This document shows, one piece after another, positions 2,075 through 62,500 of a stretch of 64,000 bases of DNA. How positions within the stretch are numbered: position 1 is the first letter of the stretch; every line of letters begins with the position of its first letter. This DNA is from Caenorhabditis elegans (Eukaryota > Nematoda > Chromadorea > Rhabditida > Rhabditidae), in contig NC_003283.11 in NCBI RefSeq assembly GCF_000002985.6, forward strand, positions 9,796,001 through 9,860,000. The letters are read 5' to 3'. The position numbers were made by a program, and so were the translations under genes. The notes beneath the pieces were generated by a model, which saw nothing but the letters and a program-made list of their open reading frames with translations, did no database searches and was not told the DNA's origin.

Positions 2075-2925
2075 GCGAAGGTACCGTTGAAAAATTAGTG
2101 TTATATTATTAATACTCTCATTGAAATACAGGTTTCATCCCTTTTCCTTTCCGTTTCAATAATAGTTTTCCTATTTTTCTTTGTGCTCATCCCTGCCCAG
2201 AACGTGTCTCCAAAATTCCTGTATGTGTTCCTGATATGGTTGTATTAAAAAATAAAATTAAATAAAATGGTTTTGATAAATATAAATATAAAATTTAACA
2301 ACGCAAAAAACCGGAAGTTTGAGTCACGTCGGAAACAGACATGTTGAATGAATCAACATCCTCCACACATTTTCCTCATTTTCAAAAACATTAAATGCTG
2401 ATTAGACCAAGACGACACTTTATCCTTACTTGAGAGAGTTCTCGTTCGAAGAAGTATATCTGAGAAGGTATTAAAATCACTTGTTGTAGAATAAAAGATG
2501 AATCCGATTCATTGATACAAATATCTAAAAAAAAAGCATACCGAGGACATTGATTTATTCTTCAATAATTAGAAAGATCGAGAGGAAAAATGAGTTCATG
2601 TTAAGATATTTTGGATGATCAGAACATTTTTTAATGTGCTTAAATGAAAGCTAACGTTTCATAACATAAACTCCCATTGCTTCGGTTGAAAGAAAGTGCA
2701 AAAAACTATGATTTTTGAACCGGAATTTTTTGACAGATCCAATATGATACGACTAACGGCTTGAAGCAAGAAGAGTATTCGGGTCTATTTTAGAATTACT
2801 TTTAGCCAAGAAAAATAGCAATTAAGCAATTACGAAGTACAATTATTATCAGTTAGTTAAAATATAAAACTGTTAAAAAAGATAATATTGAAATGCTCAT
2901 ACTTTATTCGTAATCAAATGTGAAT
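2075..2925. other. Intergenic, mostly noncoding
   Basis: This holds the 3' flank of the four-TM gene (AATAAA-type signals near 2250-2275) and the 3' flank of the convergent peptide gene (AATAAA on the minus strand at 2903-2908). No further gene was recognised. Confidence 0.5.
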
Positions 2926-3163
2926 TCATCCCCAAATATCCCAGTAATCAATTTGTGGGTTTGGTGAACGCTTGTATCTTGAGCCGTCGACGGTGTCACC
3001 AATATTTTGATCATTTCCTCCAATCAGGAAATCATCACCGATGTTTGCAGATACAGTTGCGAAGATTGTCACCAGAAGAACCACACACTGAAAATTTATT
3101 GATAATAATCCTGTAAGTAGTAGGAATTCTTACCAAGAGGAGGTTCTGGTTGAAGAAGAGCAT
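2926..3163 (-). CDS. Putative secreted neuropeptide-like precursor (63 aa)
   Basis: Two minus-strand exons, 3163-3134 and 3087-2926, are separated by a 46-bp GT-AG intron whose acceptor is TTTTCAG. They join in phase 0. The 63-residue product starts with a strong signal peptide (hydrophobic core LLLCVVLLVTIFATVSA, residues 8-24, likely cut after VSA). The rest has no cysteine. It carries an acidic propeptide of about 24 residues, then a dibasic KR site, then the C-terminal peptide SPNPQIDYWDIWG directly before the stop. A terminal Gly after cleavage would be an amide donor, giving a peptide ending ...WDIW-amide. The stop is followed 18 bp later by AATAAA. Signal peptide, dibasic site and C-terminal Gly are the standard features of neuropeptide precursors. 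I do not recognise the peptide as a named NLP. A secreted antimicrobial or structural peptide is an alternative. Confidence 0.72.
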
Positions 3164-3491
3164 TCTGAAAGCGAATGATAAAGAAAACACAATATTAAGC
3201 TTTCTTATGGGGGCCGTTTAATTGGATTAGATAGTTGAAGGCGGAGTTCAATCATTTTATGGATTGTTTCCCTTCGTCTTTCCTGATCTTCATGGGAAAC
3301 TCAATTCAAAAAATATTGAAAACCAAAAACCGTTAAACAAGATTCCAATTGATTTCGAAATGCACAATGACCTTATTTTATAAGAAGTAACATTTTCAGT
3401 ACATCGAATGACGTCACTCTTTTGCAAAATACAATTACAAATAATTCAGAAATAAAACTTTATTGACATTGAAAATGGTGAAGCAGTGAGA

Positions 3492-6310
3492 TTATGTGCC
3501 CTTCTTACTTTTTCTCGATTTCTGAAATTAAATTTCAAATTTTGAAGGCAACAATGTTAAACTCACATCCTTTTTCAGTTTTTTCGTCGAGAAAACAAGA
3601 TCTTTTCTCTGAAATATAAAAAAAGCTAGATGGAAATCAAAACTACAGTGCGTGCAACTTCTATAGCGCCCCCTATTTTTTTCGTGTTTCGTCACTTTCC
3701 CAAACTTTTTTGAGAAAACCATTATATCCATTCGATTTCAAATGTCAAAAAACCCCCTGTCCGAAATTTTCATGAAAGAATATCAAAGACTACGGTAATT
3801 AGGCCAAAAAGTCTGAAAAACGACCGTGCAACTTCTATAGCGCTCCCTCGAATTTTCGCTATTTTTCAATAAAATACCTAGTTTTATGAGATTTCTGAAA
3901 AGGATATAGTATTATATATTAAGAAAAAAGCATTCATTACGAAACTTGAACTAATAATTTAATTTTGTTCACTAAAGATATTTTGAAAGGTTGATATTAA
4001 ATTCGGTAGAGATAGGTAAGGTAGATAGCGCTGCTCATTGTGAGGAAATCAGTTTTTCTCTCTAGAACAGAATTTTGCGACGTGCCAGAGATTGGACGCG
4101 GTTCATTTCTAGTAGAAAAGCTTCATATTCATTGTTGAAATTTTTATAAGTGTTATTCGAACAAAAAACTTTTGAAAAATGATTGGTCCAATGCAGGAGA
4201 TCTCCTTTAAAAAAATTGCACATACATCAAAACTGGGCAAGTTCACTGCCCGCAGGTTTTTGGGTGAATTTTTAGTTTTTAACAAACACTTTGAAATATT
4301 AAGTTCGGATGCAAGTTCTGTGACCCCTCTGAACACTTCGACAGTTCTTTTGTCGTTCGATCTCGAATGAAACGCGCGGAACCACGGGAAACAGACCCGC
4401 CCAGTGTTTCTGCACATGTTAATTTGTTTGAGGGATATTTCTCGAATTTTACCGATCATTTTCCAACATTTTTCGATCCGGACAAAATTTGTTTTAAATA
4501 GTTAATTGAATGGATATCTTGTCTACCAGAAAAGACGCACATCCATTCTCTGACATGCCTCAGATGTGTTTTATCGATAGAACAACTGATTGGTTACTAG
4601 ACTTACTATTAACTTGGTCTGTCAACCTGGCCCATATTGACCAAATTTTATGACAACTTATTGAAACATTATCAGTAAATCAAAATGAAAATTTCGGTCA
4701 AGTTTCGTATCAATACATGCAGTGGTAGCCGAGAACTGGCCACTAACGCAAAGTGAAGCGTTTCAGGCCACTCTTGGGATCCCAGAAGTTTTCACGTAAT
4801 ATATTTCTGTTGAAAATTGAAAAATGAAACCTTATGATCATTTTTCTTAATATATAATACTATATCCTTTTCAGAAATCTCATAAAACTAGGTATTTTAT
4901 TGAAAAATAGCGAAAATTCGAGGGAGCGCTATAGAAGTTGCACGGTCGTTTTTCAGACTTTTTGACCTAATTACCGTAGTCTTTGATATTTTTTCATGAA
5001 AATTTCGGGCAGGGGGTTTTTTGACATTTAAAATCGAATGGCTATAATGGTTTTCTCAAAAAAGTTTGGGAAAGTGACGAAACACGAAAAAAATAGGGGG
5101 CGCTATAGAAGTTGCACGCACTGTATACTACTTTTACAGTTAAAAAAAATTACCACGGATTTTGCAGGTTCCTTTTCGTTTTTCCCAGTATCGATTGCAT
5201 CTTCAAGTGTCATATTGGTCACATGCTGAGTGCTCTCAATCTCTCTGGCACGTGGATCAGATTGCGTCTTATCAGTGGTTATTGTTTTTTCTTTCTTGGG
5301 GATAATGGATTTCTGGGACTTTTGAAGAATAGGAGGCGGTTGAGCAACTGAAATCGCCTGTGCAGTCTTCGGGCCACCTGATGGAGTTACAGCTCGAATC
5401 GTTGGTTGTTTTGAGACAGGCTTCTTCTCCATCTCAACAATGTTCTCCAATGTTGCACCATCCTAATTTGGTGGGACAACTGGTCGTTCAGGCATCTGGA
5501 ACTGTGCAAGAGGGTTTTCGTCGTCATCTCCAACAATTGAATCTCCAGTTTTCTCAGGTTTATCCTTCTTCGCTAAACGCTTTGCCATTTCTTTGAAAGC
5601 ATCATCCCTGAAAAATGATCTTTAAAAAAATTATTTCAAGTAAAGTCGAAAGAAAAACAAGTTGTGACAACATTTTATGCCTATCCAATCACCCCAAAAA
5701 TGCAGAAAACTCACGTGGAATCTGGTTCTTTACTGCTTTTGACTCCTCTCCGACCTCCTTTCGTTTTTGTTGAACCTCTGTCATCCCTGTCAACAATCCT
5801 CGATTGTCTTGAACATTGCGGTAGCGGTGTGGTTCCCTGAAATTTGGATGGTATTATCAATTATTCAATTGCGAAGTTCAAGTTCTAAACTATGAAACAA
5901 TATTGAATTACCCGTGGAGTGACTTCCTCTAAAGTAGCCTTCTTGTCCTTCTTCAATTTTGCACAAAAAACGAGAAAGCTATTACATGATATTGCAAAAA
6001 GCATCGAAATAACAATTATAATGATCATTATGTTGACAGTTGAATTGTATGCTTGACCAGATGAAGAAAGTAGAAATAATTTTTCTAGTATAAATTGACC
6101 TTATCATTTTTAAACGTTGTTCTAATTAGCGGTAAACAAACTTTAGAAAAACGCGATTCAAAGTTAAAAAAAAATAGAGACCAGATGTCTACGCGAATTA
6201 TTTTTTCAATCATTAAAAGAATAATTTTTTTCGTAAAATATTTACATTCCAGAAGTTCTGAGAAATTCAATTTTTGATCATTAGAATAATTAATTCGTAC
6301 CACTCTTCAT
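3492..6310 (-). CDS. Single-pass membrane protein with in-frame TAG; exons continue past it
   Basis: Six minus-strand exons join in phase: 6310-6301, 6084-5912, 5836-5715, 5607-5154, 3608-3567 and 3521-3492 (stop TAA). They span 277 codons. The N-terminal part has an N-glycosylation site (NST) and one TM helix (IMIIIIVISMLFAISCNSFLVF, about residues 31-52), then a basic stop-transfer segment (KLKKDKK) and a long Lys/Pro/Asp-rich tail, so an N-out, cytoplasmic-tail topology is likely. Codon 150, at 5465-5463, is TAG. Reading on in the same frame gives 100 more plausible residues, then two short exons rich in Lys, all splicing in phase 0, and an AATAAA at 3464-3459. The gene therefore looks built to be longer than the TAG allows: a nonsense allele, readthrough, or a misread base. 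A 72-bp intron ending at that TAG is possible but has a poor donor. I recognise no family. Confidence 0.6.
3646..5123. mobile_element. Tc1/mariner-like foldback DNA transposon, non-autonomous
   Basis: Two inverted arms of about 280 bp (3646-3929 and about 4841-5123) face each other around a 0.9 kb centre. The outer ends read CAGTGCGTGCAACTTCTATA and its complement, and TA lies directly outside each end (3644-3645 and 5124-5125), the target duplication expected of Tc1/mariner elements. CAGTG termini are also typical of that group. Each arm contains the core GTGCAACTTCTATAGCGC twice, near the tip and about 175 bp inwards, so there are four copies. No transposase frame is present; the 117-codon frame in the centre (4109-4459, minus) has no recognisable motif. 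The element sits inside intron 4 of the single-pass membrane gene and leaves its splice sites intact. Confidence 0.85.
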
Positions 6311-23278: not shown

Positions 23279-24210
23279 ATGTCGAATGTTTTCCCTTCCA
23301 ATGGATCAATACATGGAATTCCTGTATACATGGATAATGTCCCAACAATCAACTTTGCAACGATGCAAGCATTCGTCCCGTTTATATATATAATTCCAAC
23401 TTCTGTTATCATGATTGTTATACTTGTAAAATACAGAAAAGCAAAAATGATTATGACTGCAGCTTCCTTGGATTCAAATTTGTTTGTTACAATAATGCTC
23501 TATTTTTTCTTTGTAAGTTATCTAGTATACTTTACTATAGTCTGCCAAGAGTTCGCTCCGTGGAAACTACAGTGCCGCAATATTGTTCCAAATTCGGAAC
23601 AAAGATAAAAAATGAATTTCAGAACGTTTTATTTTTCATTGGAGACTATATACATCTTAACCTCCCATCTTCTGGTTTATTGACGTCATTGTGCGCTAAC
23701 ACAGAGCCTAGTTGGACTTACACGTTCATTGTCATTTTTGCGTATTTCGGTGATTATGGTACCATATCAAGTCCTTTTTTAGCCAGTTTAATCAGGTTTA
23801 CAATAATTATATCACCACATAACAATACAAAGGTAACTTGTTTAATTATTTTGAACATCTATTTTACAATTCAATGAACCAAATTTTAATTTTGGTTTTT
23901 AGTACTGTAAAACAATAATGCGATGTTTTGTATGGCCTTTTATAATACTAGTTCCAATAACTCTTACTTTTGGAACTATCCCAGCTACTGGTTATTGTAA
24001 GCAATTGAGCTCACCATTCAATTTCGGTGCATTTATTGTGTTTGAAGGAGAGTATTATGCTCGAATTAATATCATTATTCATTTCATATTTTCAAATATC
24101 CACTTTTTCTTCGCAAAAAGAAGTCAGCTACTAGAGTGAATGGAAATCAGGGAGCTGCATTTTGGAATAGCAATACAAATACACCAAAAAATTCGTCTCA
24201 AATGTTTTAA
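23279..24210 (+). pseudogene. sru pseudogene with internal deletion (block copy B2)
   Basis: Exons 23279-23512, 23623-23832 and 23903 onward match the gene at 17838 exon for exon, through FPSNGSIHGIPVYM, LPSSGLLTSLCA and ATGYCKQLSSPFNFGAF. Near 24100 the sequence jumps from the exon-3 text of its paralogue (IIHFIFSN) straight to exon-4 text that matches the paralogue's THPLFLR and Ser/Asn-rich tail (encoded at about 24099-24210, in a different frame). About 335 bp are missing relative to 17838, taking the end of TM5, all of TM6, the last intron and TM7 with its RPIGND motif. The current frame runs into a stop at 24137-24139. It cannot make a seven-helix receptor. Confidence 0.88.
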
Positions 24211-50597: not shown

Positions 50598-53500
50598 TTA
50601 TCGACCATTATTGTTGGGGAAATATCCCATGTGCCCTGGATGGAACTGATTGGTGGCAGTTCCATTTGTTTGATGCGGAATATGTCCATTGTTATACAAC
50701 CATGGCTGCTGATAGTCCACTTGGTTGTATGGATAATTCTGATACGGGGGCTGCCAAATATTAGGATAGTTGGTGTATGGATAGAACGGTGGATATGCTG
50801 GCATCATATTCATTGCGTTCATTGGGAATTGCATCTGTGGATGAACTCCTTGAGGTACACCAGGAGCTGCTATTCTCTGTTGTGGTTGCTGCGGTTGTTG
50901 TTGCTGATGTTGATGCTGTTGTCTCGCCTTAGTCCGTTGTGTAGCAGCCGATTCGGACCTTCTTCGGCCATTGGCGGTGGTAGGTGCAGGTGGAATTGGA
51001 GGCTGAACAACTTGTTGTTGTTGAGATGGAGGAGGAGCAGCTGGAGGACTGCTAAACTGATGATGTTGTAACATGAGCTGATTTTGTTGCTCAATACTAG
51101 GCACAGTATTGATTCCTCCGATTGCACTCTCCTGAGACATCTGAAACCATTATTTTCATTATATTTCTTGAAGTGAATTTTTAAAATAAATTTATGATGT
51201 TCACTTTGTTTAAAAGGTAGTATCAGCTCATGTTTAAAAATCTTGAAACTTGTGAGACATATTCATGATAAATGTTTGAAGGGGTAGATTAGCAAATGGG
51301 GAAATTGCTTTGTTGCTTCTTTTTTCTATATCTCGTAACATTTCCGAAATCAAAACATTTTTGGAAGTGTATTATATTTGGTTATTTTCGAAATTTATGT
51401 AAGTACATTCAAGCGGAAATCCCCACTGCCCGTACCCACCTTTAAAATGTACATCTTAATTATGTTTTTAATTCAGGTTTAAAATAAACTCTCACCTGAG
51501 CCATTGAATGTCCCATCTCATATTGCTGAGGAGTATGCTGAAGCGAAGCAGGTCCACCAACCATTTCAATAGAATTACTATTATGGATTGAATGATTGGA
51601 TGCAACAGAAGCAGGCATTCCAGCCATGGGAGGACTCATGAATTGTTGACTTTGTTGTTCTGGAGTATGATGAGTGTAGGCTGGACCACATGATGGAACA
51701 CCTCCCGATCCAGGCGTCGCTTGCTGCTGTGAGTTGGGATGAGAGAATGGAGGTTGTTGTGGAGTTGTATTAATCATGCTCATTTGTGGTGTTACATGAG
51801 ATGATGTCGATGGTCCTGCATTCATTGAATCGTGATAATGTTGAGCAGTAGATTCCTCGTGATGAGTTATACCATTGTGCTGCACAATTGGAGCAATCAA
51901 CGGCATTTCTTCTTCATTATTTTCACTTTTCCCAATTTGTGGTGACAGATTTGGTGGCGCATCGTCGTCTCCAGTCGAATATCCGTCCACTGAATTATGG
52001 GAAAGAGGTGGTGCATCTGAAGGTCCACTTTGAAGAGTTACAGTTGGCTGTGGCGCTGCAGGATCATCTACTTCAGACACCAGATGAGGTGGTTTACTGT
52101 CATTCTCAGCAAAATGACAATCATTGTCCTGATATATGTTTTGTTGTGCCTGCATCAGTTGAGGCTGAGGAGAAGGTGTTGGAGAATGAGGTGGAGAAGA
52201 ATGGTAGGAATCAGGTGTGGGAATATTGTAGTCCTGAAAATAAAGAATAGAAACATAGATTTTGCGAAAATGTTTGGCAGTTATCTAATTGACATGTCTG
52301 CTGCTTTTCTAATTTCCCACGCTACTAAATTTGGATTATACATTTGGAAATCGTGTTTTCGCAAGAATTAAATATCTTGTCTTGGGGATCAGAATCGAAA
52401 CTTAATAGGCTTACCGTTATCGGAACCTCGTCTTCTACTCTATCATAAGCTTCTGTCGATTGATGATCCTCGTCACTTTTTGGAATATCTACTTCTGATG
52501 TTTGTTCGATGCCTTCAATCTTCGATTCAGAAGCTTGCATATTTATATCTGATACAGTGACTTTCGCTTCTTCTTCTTCAACCTTTTCCACAAGAATCAT
52601 CTCTGTTGATGGTCCAGGCTTACTCTCAAGACCCTCACCATCTTCAGAATTTTCAGCCTTTTTAGGTTCATCTCGATCTCTGACTCCAAAGTTTGGTGGG
52701 AATTTCTTTCCAGCCACTGACCTTCGCTTTTTAGAAACTTTCTTTCCTCTTCTCGATTTTTCATTCTTTTCCTTGTTAACGGATGTCTCAAAGGGTTTTT
52801 CATCATCAGTGGTTAAAGGTTCGGAATCTGTCGGATCATCGTCTTCCTCCTCTTCTTCAGTTCCATCTGTTCTTCTATTACGATATTTTCCTCGACCTGA
52901 CGAGGTTGCTGAAGTTTTTCGACCAGAAGGATTTGGTTCCGATTCGGTATTATTGCATTTGTTACCCCGTTGTCGTTTTCCGGATGGCTTTGTGGATGGT
53001 CCGGGTTCGTCATCTTCGGGAGTTTCTTCGCGAATATTTGACTTATCGAGAACAGAGTCTGAAAATTGATTGCCACTATTATTACGTAAACATCTAAAGA
53101 TGAGAATTTTCGCCATATCTTACGCGCGCGGGTCTCACAACGCTGACAACGAAGCTTTATAACTTGTACAAGTTACAAGTTTGTATCAATTAATCATAAT
53201 TGATCATATTTTCATTATAAAAATGCTAGCAGGTATTTTTCGTTTATCTTGAAACACGTGGTATCAGGCTGTCTCATTGTGGTTTGATCTACAAAAATTC
53301 AGGATCTTTCCCCGGAAAAAGTGTGACGTCAGCACGCTCTTAACCATGCGAAATCAGTTGAAATGTCTCTTTTCCCGCATTTTTCGAAGATCAAAACGAA
53401 ATGGGACTTTCTGACTCCACGTGTTGAAAATTATGAGGAAAGCCCGGTCCATGAAAGGGACGTACAGGTAAAATAAAGTTACTACTCTACTTTTAATTAT

Positions 53501-56500: not shown

Positions 56501-59500
56501 ACTGCAAAACCTTTTTTTTTAAATAATTCGTAAAAAATAATTACCAATCCGCATGATGCAGCACTACTGCTACTTGGAGCTGATCCGTCTACGTTGAGAT
56601 CATTACTTCGATTTGTGTCAATTGTCAATGCGCTCAGACGAGAATTTGTTCGCCGCTGAGCTTCTGGAGAATATCGAGGACGTGGTGTGCGAGGTCGTTT
56701 TGCTATTTCTGATTGATCATTCGATAACATCTGAAATTAATTCAATATACATTTTCAATTTCTAAATTGTGATCAATTTTTGCGATTATTTTCAAAAATA
56801 TCAAGAGAAAAATGTGGAATAAAGGTTTTTCATTTTCTAGAAAAATTTTTAAAAAATTCTTTTTAAGAATTTTTCCTTACAGATCCTTTAGTTTCCAATT
56901 CGACGAGAGTGAAAACCTAGTGTGCTTCAAAAAAAAAAGAACGGTGTGGTAGTAAAAATTATTTACCAAACAAATTTTCGTTTTTTCAAGAATGAAAAAT
57001 TCAAAAATTAGAAAGTTGTAGGTGATCAACATGAGAAAATTCCATGGATTAAAAAAAGGTTACGGTGAGAACCTGCACGTCTAATTGCGGCGGCAGCTCG
57101 CAATTCTATTTTTTAAACGAAATATCACTAGTGTTATAAGATTACTGTATTAAAGGTGCATTTTTTTGCGAAAAATGACAATTGATACTTTATGTTAAAA
57201 TTTGAGTGTTTTTTTTTCAAATCTTCTTTTGTGATTATAAATGTTCATGGGAACAAAAATCAGTTTTGGTTTTTTTAAAGCTCAAACATGAAAAGGACGA
57301 CACAATTTTCTAGCTGGAATTATTATGTGAAAACAGGCTTTTCAGACAAATACAAGGGAAATAAACCTACTTCATCGTTATCTGAATTTTCCGAATCGAG
57401 AATTCCTCGCATAAGTCTTGTCACCGGAGTCGAGTGTGGGTTTGAAAGCAGGCTCGCACAGCGAGAATTGTTTGTGTTTCGGCGTTTTGACGAAGTCGAC
57501 GACATCTTGAGAAGGGAACACATAGTTCAGAGTTTTAGACTTTAGCAACACAGGGTTAGAGCTTTTTGTGAATAAAATTATGGTTTTTTTAAATTTAGAA
57601 ATTAAATAATCAATGTTTTTAAGTTAAAAAAAATACTTACTGGATCTTTCTGGTCGCCTTCGGGGCGGATAACCGTTGAAGGTGTATCTTGAATTCTTGG
57701 GGGATTAAAATCCCTGCTGCTGTCGTGGAGCCGTTTTGTTTCTGAAAAAGAAAACTTACTTACTTACTTACTTTACTTGTTATTGCGGAATGAAATCCGA
57801 AATTTTAACATGATTATTTATACGAAGTCTGTCAAAAAAGTCACATAAAAAAAAATTTTTTAAAAAGTCACATGAAATCGAGACTCAAGACATTTTTTAT
57901 TTTGTTTTCATCTGCTTTCTCTGCTCCTCCATTTCTTTTTCTGTCTCATCGTGCCAAAGGTTGACAAAAAGCAAGAATAAAAACGGGAGGAGATGAGGAA
58001 AGTGAGACATTTTGTGAGATGAAAAAAAGCAGAGGAAGAACACAGAGAGAGAGAGTGGATGACAGAAAGAGTGTATGTGTGCATGTTTTATGACCACGAA
58101 GCCTGGTTTTGGAGAGAAAAGAGAGTGAAAAGAGCTTCGTCGTTTAATTTGGCTTGGTTTTCGTCAAGTTTTCGGAATATAGAGAATTGGTTTGTTATAT
58201 ATAAACAGGTGAAATTTCGGGCCTTCATTCCGAGATGACAAACTTTTTGGTGGCAAAGGTTCTTTGGGGGCATAGTATCCAAGGAGACAAAGTATCCAGT
58301 AGACAAACTGGGGTGTATCTTGGGGGGCATATCTTTGGTGACAACCTTTTTTTCAACTAGATTTTTATATGTATTTTTCAACTAATTTTTGTTCACATTT
58401 TTCTGGAATAAGTTTTTTAATGCAATTTTCAATCGATTTTCGGTTATAATTCCCTCACAATTGAATGTATGAACGATGGTCTTTTGGGAAAAGGCTGTAA
58501 AACGTCCAACTAACTTGGAATATCGTCAGGCTCTTCCTGATGGTCTGATCCTTCAGCTCCGAAGGATCACATGGGTACCTTCTGATGATCTGATCCTTCA
58601 GATAAGAAGGATCGTAAGGGTACCACCTGATGGTCTGATCCTTCAGATCCAAAGGATCATGAGGCTCTTCCTGATGTTCTGATCCTTCAGCTCCAAAAGA
58701 ACATGGGTACCTCCTGATGTTCTGATCCTTCAGCTTCGAAGGATCATATGGATTTTTGACAAAATTTGAAAAAAAAAATGTTGAAAAAAAACTCGAAATT
58801 TTTTTTGTTATTCTTTATTCTTTAAAGAATAGTTCAAATTTATCATGATAGGACCGAAAACTTTCAAGAAACAGTATAACTATACATGATAATCAGCTTC
58901 TACCAAATAATGATAAATTCTCCGCGATGACAAACTTTTGGGTGACATCGGAAGGATCAGATCATCAGGCAGAGCCTCATGCTCTTTTGGAGCTGAAGGA
59001 TCAGAACATCAGGAAGAGCCTCGTGATCCTTTGGAGCTAAAGGATCAGACCATCAGGAGGTTCCCTTACGATCCTTCTTATCTGAAGGATCAGAACATCA
59101 GAAGGTACCCATGTGATCCTTCGGAGCTGAAGGATCAGACCATCAGGAAGAGCCTGACGATATTCCAAGTTAGTTGGACGTTTTACAGCCTTTTCCCAAA
59201 AGACCATCGTTCATACATTCAATTGTGAGGGAATTAAAACCGAAAATCGATTGAAAATTGCATTAAAAAACTTATTCCAGAAAAATGTGAACAAAAATTA
59301 GTTGAAAAATACATATAAAAATCTAGTTGAAAAAAAGGTTGTCACCAAAGATATGCCCCCCAAGATACACCCCAGTTTGTCTACTGGATACTTTGTCTCC
59401 TTGGATACTATGCCCCCAAAGAACCTTTGCCACCAAAAAGTTTGTCATCTCGGAATGAAGGCCCGAAATTTCGTGAAAAACTAAGTGTCGCTTGTGCGTA

Positions 59501-62500
59501 AATACTTCAAGGAATAAGCTACTGATGTAAAATCTCAATAATCCGGCTTAGGTTTTCGGGATTAATGATTAGACTTTCAGATCTTTAAATTTTCAAAACC
59601 GCGAACTCGAAGTCTATCAAAACGAGTTTTACATTTTGCATATTTCTGAAGGCGAAAAATCAAAAAATGAACTCAAGAAACTGTATCTTCAATTTTCAAG
59701 TGAAAATTTATACATTTTCTTTCGAAATACTGAATTTACATAATTTTCAATAGTATTTCGAAATGGGAAATCTAGTGAATTATTACAATCTATTTACAAT
59801 AATAAAATAATAATGAAAATTTTACAAATAATAAAGAAGACGATGAAGAAATTGAGTCAACAAAAGGGAAGGGTGCGGAATCGATGAAGAGAAGGGGTGC
59901 CCGGAAAAAGAAAAACGAAGAGAAAAAGGAAAAAGAAGAGAGAATTTGGTCCTCTAGCACAGAAAAGGAAGAGCTAGAACTGGAGAAGTTCCAATGTTTT
60001 TCTGTTTTCTGGTTGTAAGAAATAAATTTGCGGCTCCAAGAAGTATGCCTCGCTTTAAGAAGAATGAAGAAGAGGAAGCATGACGCCATTTACACAGGAA
60101 ACGGATTAATAAATATATAGATGGATGCACTTCATAAATTTTGTCTAGCTTTTCAACACGGAAAATGAAGAATTTTAAAAGAAACTGATTGAACTTTTCA
60201 TTTGGCTGAAGAAATTTATTGAAAACTCTAATATAAGGTAAGATGAGCAAATTTAAGAAAGATTGACAGGCTTACCGTTAAATACTAATTTCTGGAGATG
60301 CTGGTAACCGGTTTCAATCGATAAAAACATTTTAAAATAACAATGGTGAGCTCTAAAACAAAATTTCCCACGCTTATTTCAGATTTAAATCAAGCAGTTC
60401 AATAGAGCACATTTGCATCAGGGCGGTGCTAAATTCGTGAAAATGTGATGGTTTGAAAGAAAACTCGAATAGATTGGAAATTAATTTCGGCCCAACAAAA
60501 AAACACCTCATAAACTGGTGAAACCTACGAATAATTTTAATATTTTTTATTCGAGGAAAAAGGAAGTGTCTATATGCATGTCTTTGTGTGTATGTGTCGA
60601 TTGTATTGGGACGCCGATGAGGGTACTTTTTGGCGGCAACGCAAGAGATAGTACGCAATCGGTAGAGGTAACATACGAAACACAGAGGCATGTCTTGATG
60701 AGATAGTACGGGAATGCAAGAGCGTTCTGGGAAATGGAAGAAAGAAAGAAAAGAGGTGGGGGAGGAGGACCAGCCGATCACAGTCTCTCTGCATTGATCA
60801 ACGGGAGGAGAAAAAATGGAGAAAGGAGAGAAGAGGTTATTGGGATAAAATGCGCATTGCAGAAATTGTTTTTATGGATTGAGATCGCATCCCAGAGTTT
60901 ATATCGTTTATAAACTCTCGTGAGTATCGTGAGTTTATAGAGTTTATAGAGTTATTACTGTTTATATCGATTAGTTATATGCCCATTGACCATACAAATA
61001 GGGAAATTCGTACCAAAAGGTCAACGGAATGTGAACAGCGGAAATTGAAAATATTTTACACAAAAATCATGTGATCAAGCATCTTGTGTAACTTATTAGA
61101 ATTTATGAAGTTTCACAGAACATTTCGTGCTTAATCAATCAACTGATAACTGAAAGATAGGGGAAACCCAAATGCCTTTATGATGAAACACTATAAATAC
61201 TTTGGCAATTATCACGAAAAATGTTAATATTATTAGTTGACTTCTTTTCAGTGAAGTAATGATATGGACTTATTTACAATTACGCTTTGCCACAGCTAAA
61301 TTACGTGGTAAGTACGGTAGAGTATTATCTGTTCACGTCGAGATATAACAAATTGTGATATAATCGAAACATGTGCTGTCCGCAATTGTTACTTTTGCAT
61401 GACTATGTAATACTATTTTGCAGGTTACTTCCTAGAATATACATTCTATTTTGATATGGAAAATATTTGAAATTGGTTTTTGTTATACTATACAGCTTGA
61501 CGTCAAACTTGTATATTTAAGATTTCTATATATACCCTTATTGGTTAAAACCTATCTAGATACCCAAAGAGCAAAATATATATACTTCACCTGTTAGCCA
61601 CCAAAAAGTAAAAAAACATAGGAAAATGTTCAGCTTTTTCTTTTTTTTTTTGTAGCTACGAATCAAAAGTCGTTGAACTGATAATAATATACCTAGTTAC
61701 GATTTTTTTTCCTGAAATTTCATACAAAACAACTAAAAACACATATGAATCAATTGGAAAAAATAAAGCGTTTTTTCAAGATCAGAAAATATAAAAAATG
61801 GCAAAGAAGAAGGAGGAGATGAACGGGACAACGTCTTGTTTTTGAAAACAAGCTGAAAGAGAGCAGGAGAAGACTGGAGAAGGAGGGCAGAGCTGGTTGA
61901 AATTGCGAGCAAACGACCATAGAGAGGGCACGCAGTTTTTCTCAGTGGACATATTGGTTATCAAAAGTATTAATTAAAGTGTTCTTGTCTTGAAATGTAC
62001 GAAAACATACATCCTAAATTGAATACTATAGGTCTAGAGATGGAGGAGATCTTCCTCTTGGGGACCAAAATATTGCACCACCTGATTGTGTAATTTTTCT
62101 TACAGATTGTATTTTGATTGCTATTGGCTTAATCAAAAATGCACCAACTGATAAAATATTGAAAAAACATTATTTTTCAACAATTGGTAGTTAAACAAAA
62201 AGTCTAAATGAAGCGAGCCATAAATAAGAAAGTTCAGATTTTTTTGGCGTTGTTTCTCAATGGTATACTTTTTGAATATTATTATTTTTGATTTTGTAAG
62301 TTAAATGAACATCACATTTTTTTGTGATCCGGAAAATCTGCAGATTCAACAGCTAAAAAAGTAGGAGTGCAAGCCGAAAGTTGGGGTTGAAAATGTTTAA
62401 CTTGTTCGCCAAAGAATTTAAAAAATTTAAATTTTTCAAAAAATTCGAAGAACACGATTGGGTTAAATAACTCACCAGTTACTTCCTGATCTGTGCTTTC

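Follow-up and report, generated by a model that had tools for sequence, protein, structure and literature searches.

Does a short, interrupted open frame in the window (the whole 64-kb stretch of DNA analyzed here) encode a secreted neuropeptide precursor and, if so, does its peptide belong to a family that is already known? The gene lies on the minus strand at window positions 3163-2926, where two exons and a 46-bp intron give a 63-residue protein consisting, in order, of MLFFNQNLLLCVVLLVTIFATVSA, NIGDDFLIGGNDQNIGDTVDGSRYKR and SPNPQIDYWDIWG, followed by the stop codon. Its features, in window coordinates, are as follows.

3165-3170, minus strand: TTTCAG 3′ splice acceptor, one base 5′ of the ATG
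3134-3163, minus strand: exon 1, codons 1-10 (MLFFNQNLLL), with the ATG at 3163 and the beginning of the predicted signal peptide
3088-3133, minus strand: intron of 46 bp, GTAAGA...TTTTCAG
2926-3087, minus strand: exon 2, codons 11-63 and the TGA stop
3046-3087, minus strand: remainder of the predicted signal peptide, whose cleavage after VSA (residue 24) follows from the (-3,-1) rule applied to the translation
2968-3045, minus strand: acidic spacer NIGDDFLIGGNDQNIGDTVDGSRYKR, from translation and composition, with the KR convertase site at 2973-2968
2932-2967, minus strand: predicted mature peptide SPNPQIDYWDIW, with a presumed C-terminal amide
2929-2931, minus strand: Gly63, the predicted amide donor, abutting the stop at 2928-2926
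2903-2908, minus strand: AATAAA poly(A) signal, whose first base is the 18th past the stop

The presence of the gene in the sequence as described was confirmed. The two exons, 46-bp intron and 63 codons proposed by an initial annotation were found again, as were the AATAAA that it had placed 18 bp beyond the stop, its single KR site (K49-R50, the only dibasic site in the translation) and its Gly directly before the stop (Gly63, then TGA). The protein had also been described as having no cysteines; it has one, Cys11, which lies within the predicted signal peptide, and the translation contains none after it. The signal peptide is a rule-based prediction, and the N-terminus also passes a simple home-made rule. 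Retention of the 46-bp intron would put the frame out of register and lead to a stop codon, so splicing is required. A TTTCAG ending one base before the ATG is what is expected of a trans-spliced nematode gene, and it is probably a trans-splice site or, alternatively, the end of a 5′UTR intron.

We put at roughly 0.75 the probability that this is a real two-exon nematode gene, probably trans-spliced, whose product is the secreted, single-copy precursor of a neuropeptide or peptide hormone. The spacer is acidic, 26 residues long and ends in SRYKR, and the three basic residues among the 39 that follow the signal peptide all fall within this motif. The precursor holds one copy of the peptide and has no internal repetition; we attribute an apparent three-part periodicity of 13 residues (NIGDDFLIGGNDQ / NIGDTVDGSRYKR / SPNPQIDYWDIWG) to chance. 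An amidated precursor is the preferred reading because, past the signal peptide, basic residues occur only in SRYKR, cysteines are absent and no confident fold is predicted. This layout is the ordinary one for such precursors and, judged from the translation, the product is probably SPNPQIDYWDIW-NH2 (predicted MH+ 1532.717; m/z 766.862 for the 2+ ion). Signal peptidase would cut after Ala24, and a PC2-type convertase (EGL-3 in C. elegans) would cut after Lys49-Arg50 in dense-core vesicles. A carboxypeptidase of the EGL-21 type would remove the basic residues from the spacer (EGL-3 is given as a convertase and EGL-21 as a carboxypeptidase in PMC10077061), and a peptidylglycine amidating enzyme would convert SPNPQIDYWDIW-Gly to SPNPQIDYWDIW-NH2. 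The X-Pro start would confer resistance to aminopeptidases, much as XP ends are described as shielding cnidarian peptides (PMC9545775), and the amide would confer resistance to carboxypeptidases. The aromatic amidated tail, YWDIW-NH2, would be the likely receptor contact, presumably at a G-protein-coupled receptor. The initial proposal of an amidated precursor finds partial support in the anatomy, the codon bias, the splice signals and the clustering of basic residues at one site. Its option of a pyro form does not apply to SPNPQIDYWDIW, since the residue after KR is Ser; the Gln could be exposed for an N-terminal pGlu only if both X-Pro dipeptides (SPNP) were trimmed.

Comparison with known peptide families places the gene near the nematode NLP precursors (encoded in C. 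elegans by nlp genes, which are neither FMRFamide-like nor insulin-like). The two have in common a small gene, a signal-peptide-like start, a KR site, a C-terminal Gly as amide donor and the lack of an RFamide tail. Of the features typical of NLPs, the peptide is bounded by a dibasic convertase site (K49-R50) and carries at its end a Gly amide donor (Gly63), which is common in these precursors without being universal. The gene differs in encoding a single peptide copy and in its YWDIW-amide tail, which was absent from the full-text literature searched. With the MIP/Wamide peptides (C. elegans NLP-38 is MIP-1) it shares an amidated C-terminal Trp after an aliphatic residue, here Ile, and the presence of two Trp within the peptide. 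The MIP motif is given as W-X5-8-Wamide (PMC6380545) and Wamide precursors are described as repetitive (PMC7270403); membership was rejected, the Trp spacing here being W-X2-W and the copy number one rather than several. A Ser-Pro start, recorded for C. elegans FLP-22 and one FLP-7 peptide in an appendix (PMC3527849), is likewise found here, together with a Gly amide donor and a similar length. The RFamide C-terminus of those peptides is missing, and FLP membership was rejected since the protein ends in DIWG and not in RF-Gly. Membership of the RPamide, RFamide/RYamide and GLWamide families was ruled out on motifs.

Searches for relatives confirmed none. With the protein or its tail as query, tblastn found no second copy in the window, the next best tail match having an E-value of 0.30. 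Against Pfam, the protein matched only DUF6550 (E 0.078; 13.6 bits against a cut-off of 27), which we treated as chance, and no PDB entry matched at E up to 1. Pattern searches with the protein returned 13 stretches in IMG/VR and 97 in GTDB contigs, none of which was confirmed, and searches with the DNA pattern returned nothing in either; both collections are without nematode genomes, so absence from them is uninformative on conservation. Scanning the window for Rfam families (at gathering thresholds) and for tRNAs gave nothing. Pfam matches elsewhere in the window, which is nematode DNA, comprised Sru and Str chemoreceptors and a MYST acetyltransferase with a MYST zinc finger. The plus strand carries a multi-exon gene at 882-2074 that appears by eye to encode a multi-pass membrane protein whose tail is rich in Ser and Lys; two pieces of it were compared with Pfam, giving sub-threshold matches for one and none for the other. 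At 58211-59472 there is an inverted duplication whose two arms of ~520 bp, 97% identical and in opposite orientation, encode the same YDPSYLKDQ-like repeat runs on both strands.

The gene may be the ortholog of an nlp gene that has already been named, perhaps one restricted to Caenorhabditis, in which case the peptide would not be new and the mechanism would be the same. We regard this as a serious possibility at clearly less than even odds; it overlaps the amidated-precursor reading and does not exclude it. In C. elegans, the likely counterpart of the MYST gene (50-57 kb) is lsy-12, a gene on chromosome V. Several nlp genes, including nlp-80, are placed on chromosome V by a strain list (PMC10077061). 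In addition, nlp-65, -78 and -80 belong to a group of 13 nlp genes of C. elegans that are listed as having no counterpart in any of the nine parasites examined (PMC8764417), and the numbering of nlp genes has been extended to nlp-118 (PMC9881375). Against an already named gene, the full-text literature searched yielded no occurrence of the peptide sequence or of four variants close to it, which is weak evidence given that sequences are usually placed in supplements.

A different product would result if the gene encoded a small secreted protein (defense, seminal or epidermal) that is active uncleaved, with the KR and the terminal Gly incidental. In favor of this reading, the spacer is twice the length of the peptide. 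Permuting the 39 residues after the signal peptide gave KR or RR in 10% of cases, Gly at the end in 15%, and both in a usable arrangement in 1.2%. The low figure for the pair counts for a precursor, but across the many small proteins that are secreted it would not be negligible. Single-sequence structure prediction of these residues yielded a weak two-strand hairpin over the SRYKR/KR site and the tail, in blocks with pLDDT of 66-69. This hairpin counts against a cleaved precursor; a folded miniprotein would show the same. However, the confidence of that model was low overall (mean pLDDT 56; pTM 0.28; no confident fold), no cysteine occurs past the signal peptide, and every basic residue lies at the one cleavage site. 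Taken together, we consider an uncleaved product unlikely.

The immediate surroundings of the gene bear on where it starts. Upstream of it, in the same orientation, lies a gene whose last exon we read as 3521-3492 and whose AATAAA, at 3464-3459, is 294 nt before the acceptor. The ATG exon might therefore not be the true start, either because an upstream exon joins it or because the gene is a downstream operon member after this neighbor, as the TTTCAG acceptor one base before the ATG, the position of the neighbor's AATAAA and a frame that extends 18 codons 5′ of the ATG until it reaches TAA would allow. The hydrophobic start, however, fits a true N-terminus. Gaps within worm operons are typically ~100 nt and Ur-like sites usually lie nearer the acceptor; here, such sites (TATTTT) lie at distances of 268 and 152 nt on the 5′ side of the ATG. 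An independent gene is favored because the gap exceeds those usual in operons and the Ur-like sites are far from the acceptor, and we judge a different start or operon membership to be improbable.

A 1.48-kb element at 3644-5125, apparently within an intron of the upstream gene, has 285-nt terminal inverted repeats that are 98% complementary and ends reading TA-CAGTGCG...CGCACTG-TA, which resemble those of a Tc1/mariner-type insertion; a 130-aa frame inside the element matched nothing in Pfam at E up to 0.1. Elsewhere in the same gene, an in-frame TAG (5463-5465, minus strand) breaks the open frame between ...PERPVVPPN and DGATLENIV..., and the gene may be truncated, be a pseudogene or carry a nonsense allele.

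A perfect cAMP response element (CRE) was also found upstream of the peptide gene, and the same palindrome recurs in the window.

3409-3416, no strand assigned: perfect CRE, TGACGTCA, ~246 nt upstream of the ATG
23681-23688, 53324-53331 and 61498-61505: the three other TGACGTCA sites

The four perfect TGACGTCA palindromes in 64 kb compare with 0.67 expected, and no shuffle out of 100 contained as many. With this number in the window, the CRE is not specific evidence for the peptide gene, in which the site at 3409-3416 possibly has a role; flp-18, a worm neuropeptide gene, is reported to have CRE sites (PMC5965667).

How often would such a layout arise by chance? Our scan required a start resembling a signal peptide, a dibasic site 4-40 residues from the end of the protein and a Gly-stop, and it allowed a short intron flanked by splice signals of the worm type. 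These criteria were written after the gene had been seen. The window was compared with 6609 dinucleotide-preserving shuffles of its 64 kb. The combination of start, dibasic site and Gly-stop occurred at one locus in the window, the peptide gene, against a shuffle mean of 0.041, and at least one such locus was present in 4.0% of shuffles. With an AATAAA within 60 nt added, one locus was found in the window against 0.0033 per shuffle; when TTTCAG or TTCCAG was further required in the 30 nt preceding the ATG, the count was one against none in the 6609 shuffles. Signal-peptide-like starts alone were more numerous in the window (23 loci) than in shuffles (4.5), as were those with a dibasic site only (12 loci; shuffle mean 1.39), presumably owing to the window's many receptor genes. 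Scaling by 12/1.39 lifts the expectation for the layout to ~0.35, or to ~0.03 if AATAAA is required. When the Gly requirement was dropped and the poly(A) signal (AATAAA or AATGAA) kept, the window contained five loci.

Codon usage was examined using a set of C. elegans optimal codons and 18 comparison exons hand-picked from the 76 stop-to-stop frames of the window; six of these exons were scanned against Pfam, five giving strong matches and one (50598-51149) none. Third-position G+C was 0.48 in the gene, the intron having 0.26 and the flanks 0.27-0.34. Taken alone, third-position G+C gives p 0.026. The optimal-codon fraction of 0.47 exceeded that of all 18 exons (0.20-0.38) and also the values expected for the same protein from background triplets (0.28; p 0.002) and from the usage of the compared exons (0.29; p 0.0025). 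Plain codon log-odds were modest at 0.084 bits per codon, with exon 1 slightly negative. Among 269 stop-free runs of at least 53 codons outside the training exons, a group that could contain exon 2 as well as unannotated exons, 11 matched or exceeded the gene's log-odds and three reached its optimal-codon fraction. The modest log-odds, the single peptide copy and the post-hoc criteria of the scan count against an amidated precursor. A chance open frame or a decayed gene without a protein product would accord with those log-odds, with the scaled expectation of ~0.35 that applies without the poly(A) signal and with an area that is not pristine, its upstream same-strand gene carrying an in-frame TAG and a transposon-like insert, but is very unlikely in view of the expectation of 0.0033 (scaled, ~0.03) with AATAAA, the synonymous-codon bias (p 0.002) and the intact splice and poly(A) signals.

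Within the amidated-precursor reading, a further processing route can be imagined in which, after the KR cut, a DPP-IV-like enzyme strips Ser-Pro and Asn-Pro and the Gln cyclizes, which would leave the octapeptide pQIDYWDIW-NH2 (predicted MH+ 1120.510); we give this route very little credence. The predicted MH+ values of the forms on the way to it are 1348.632 for NPQIDYWDIW-NH2 and 1137.536 for QIDYWDIW-NH2. A sea anemone study on a dipeptidyl aminopeptidase in neuropeptide processing may provide a precedent. Like the AKH/RPCH/GnRH-type peptides, represented in C. elegans by NLP-47 (pQMTFTDQWT), the trimmed QIDYWDIW-NH2 would have Gln1, an aromatic residue at position 4, Trp8 and an amide. 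AKH normally follows the signal peptide directly, whereas the peptide here is encoded behind a spacer and KR. Moreover, pGlu1, Phe4 and Trp8 with an amide are described as prototypical of insect AKH (PMC6838013), whereas position 4 here is Tyr rather than Phe and position 3 is Asp rather than a polar Thr or Asn. The core motif of AKH/GnRH peptides is given as [FW]-[ST]-X2-W (PMC7303124); it is missing from the peptide, and membership of the nematode AKH/GnRH family was rejected. If the trimming did occur, pQIDYWDIW-NH2 would be an amidated pyroglutamyl nematode peptide of AKH/RPCH layout with a processing route unlike that of NLP-47, and a candidate ligand of an orphan GnRH/AKH-like receptor.

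Taken as a whole, these results suggest that the locus is probably a real neuropeptide precursor gene of an already known kind. At least 159 precursor genes are predicted in C. elegans (PMC7615469), and short genes such as this one are easily missed by gene finders. If the amidated-precursor reading is correct, the list of nematode peptides would gain a member with an unusual acidic YWDIW-amide tail; orphan receptors still await ligands. The general picture of neuropeptide biology would be unaltered unless the AKH-like processing proved to be correct.
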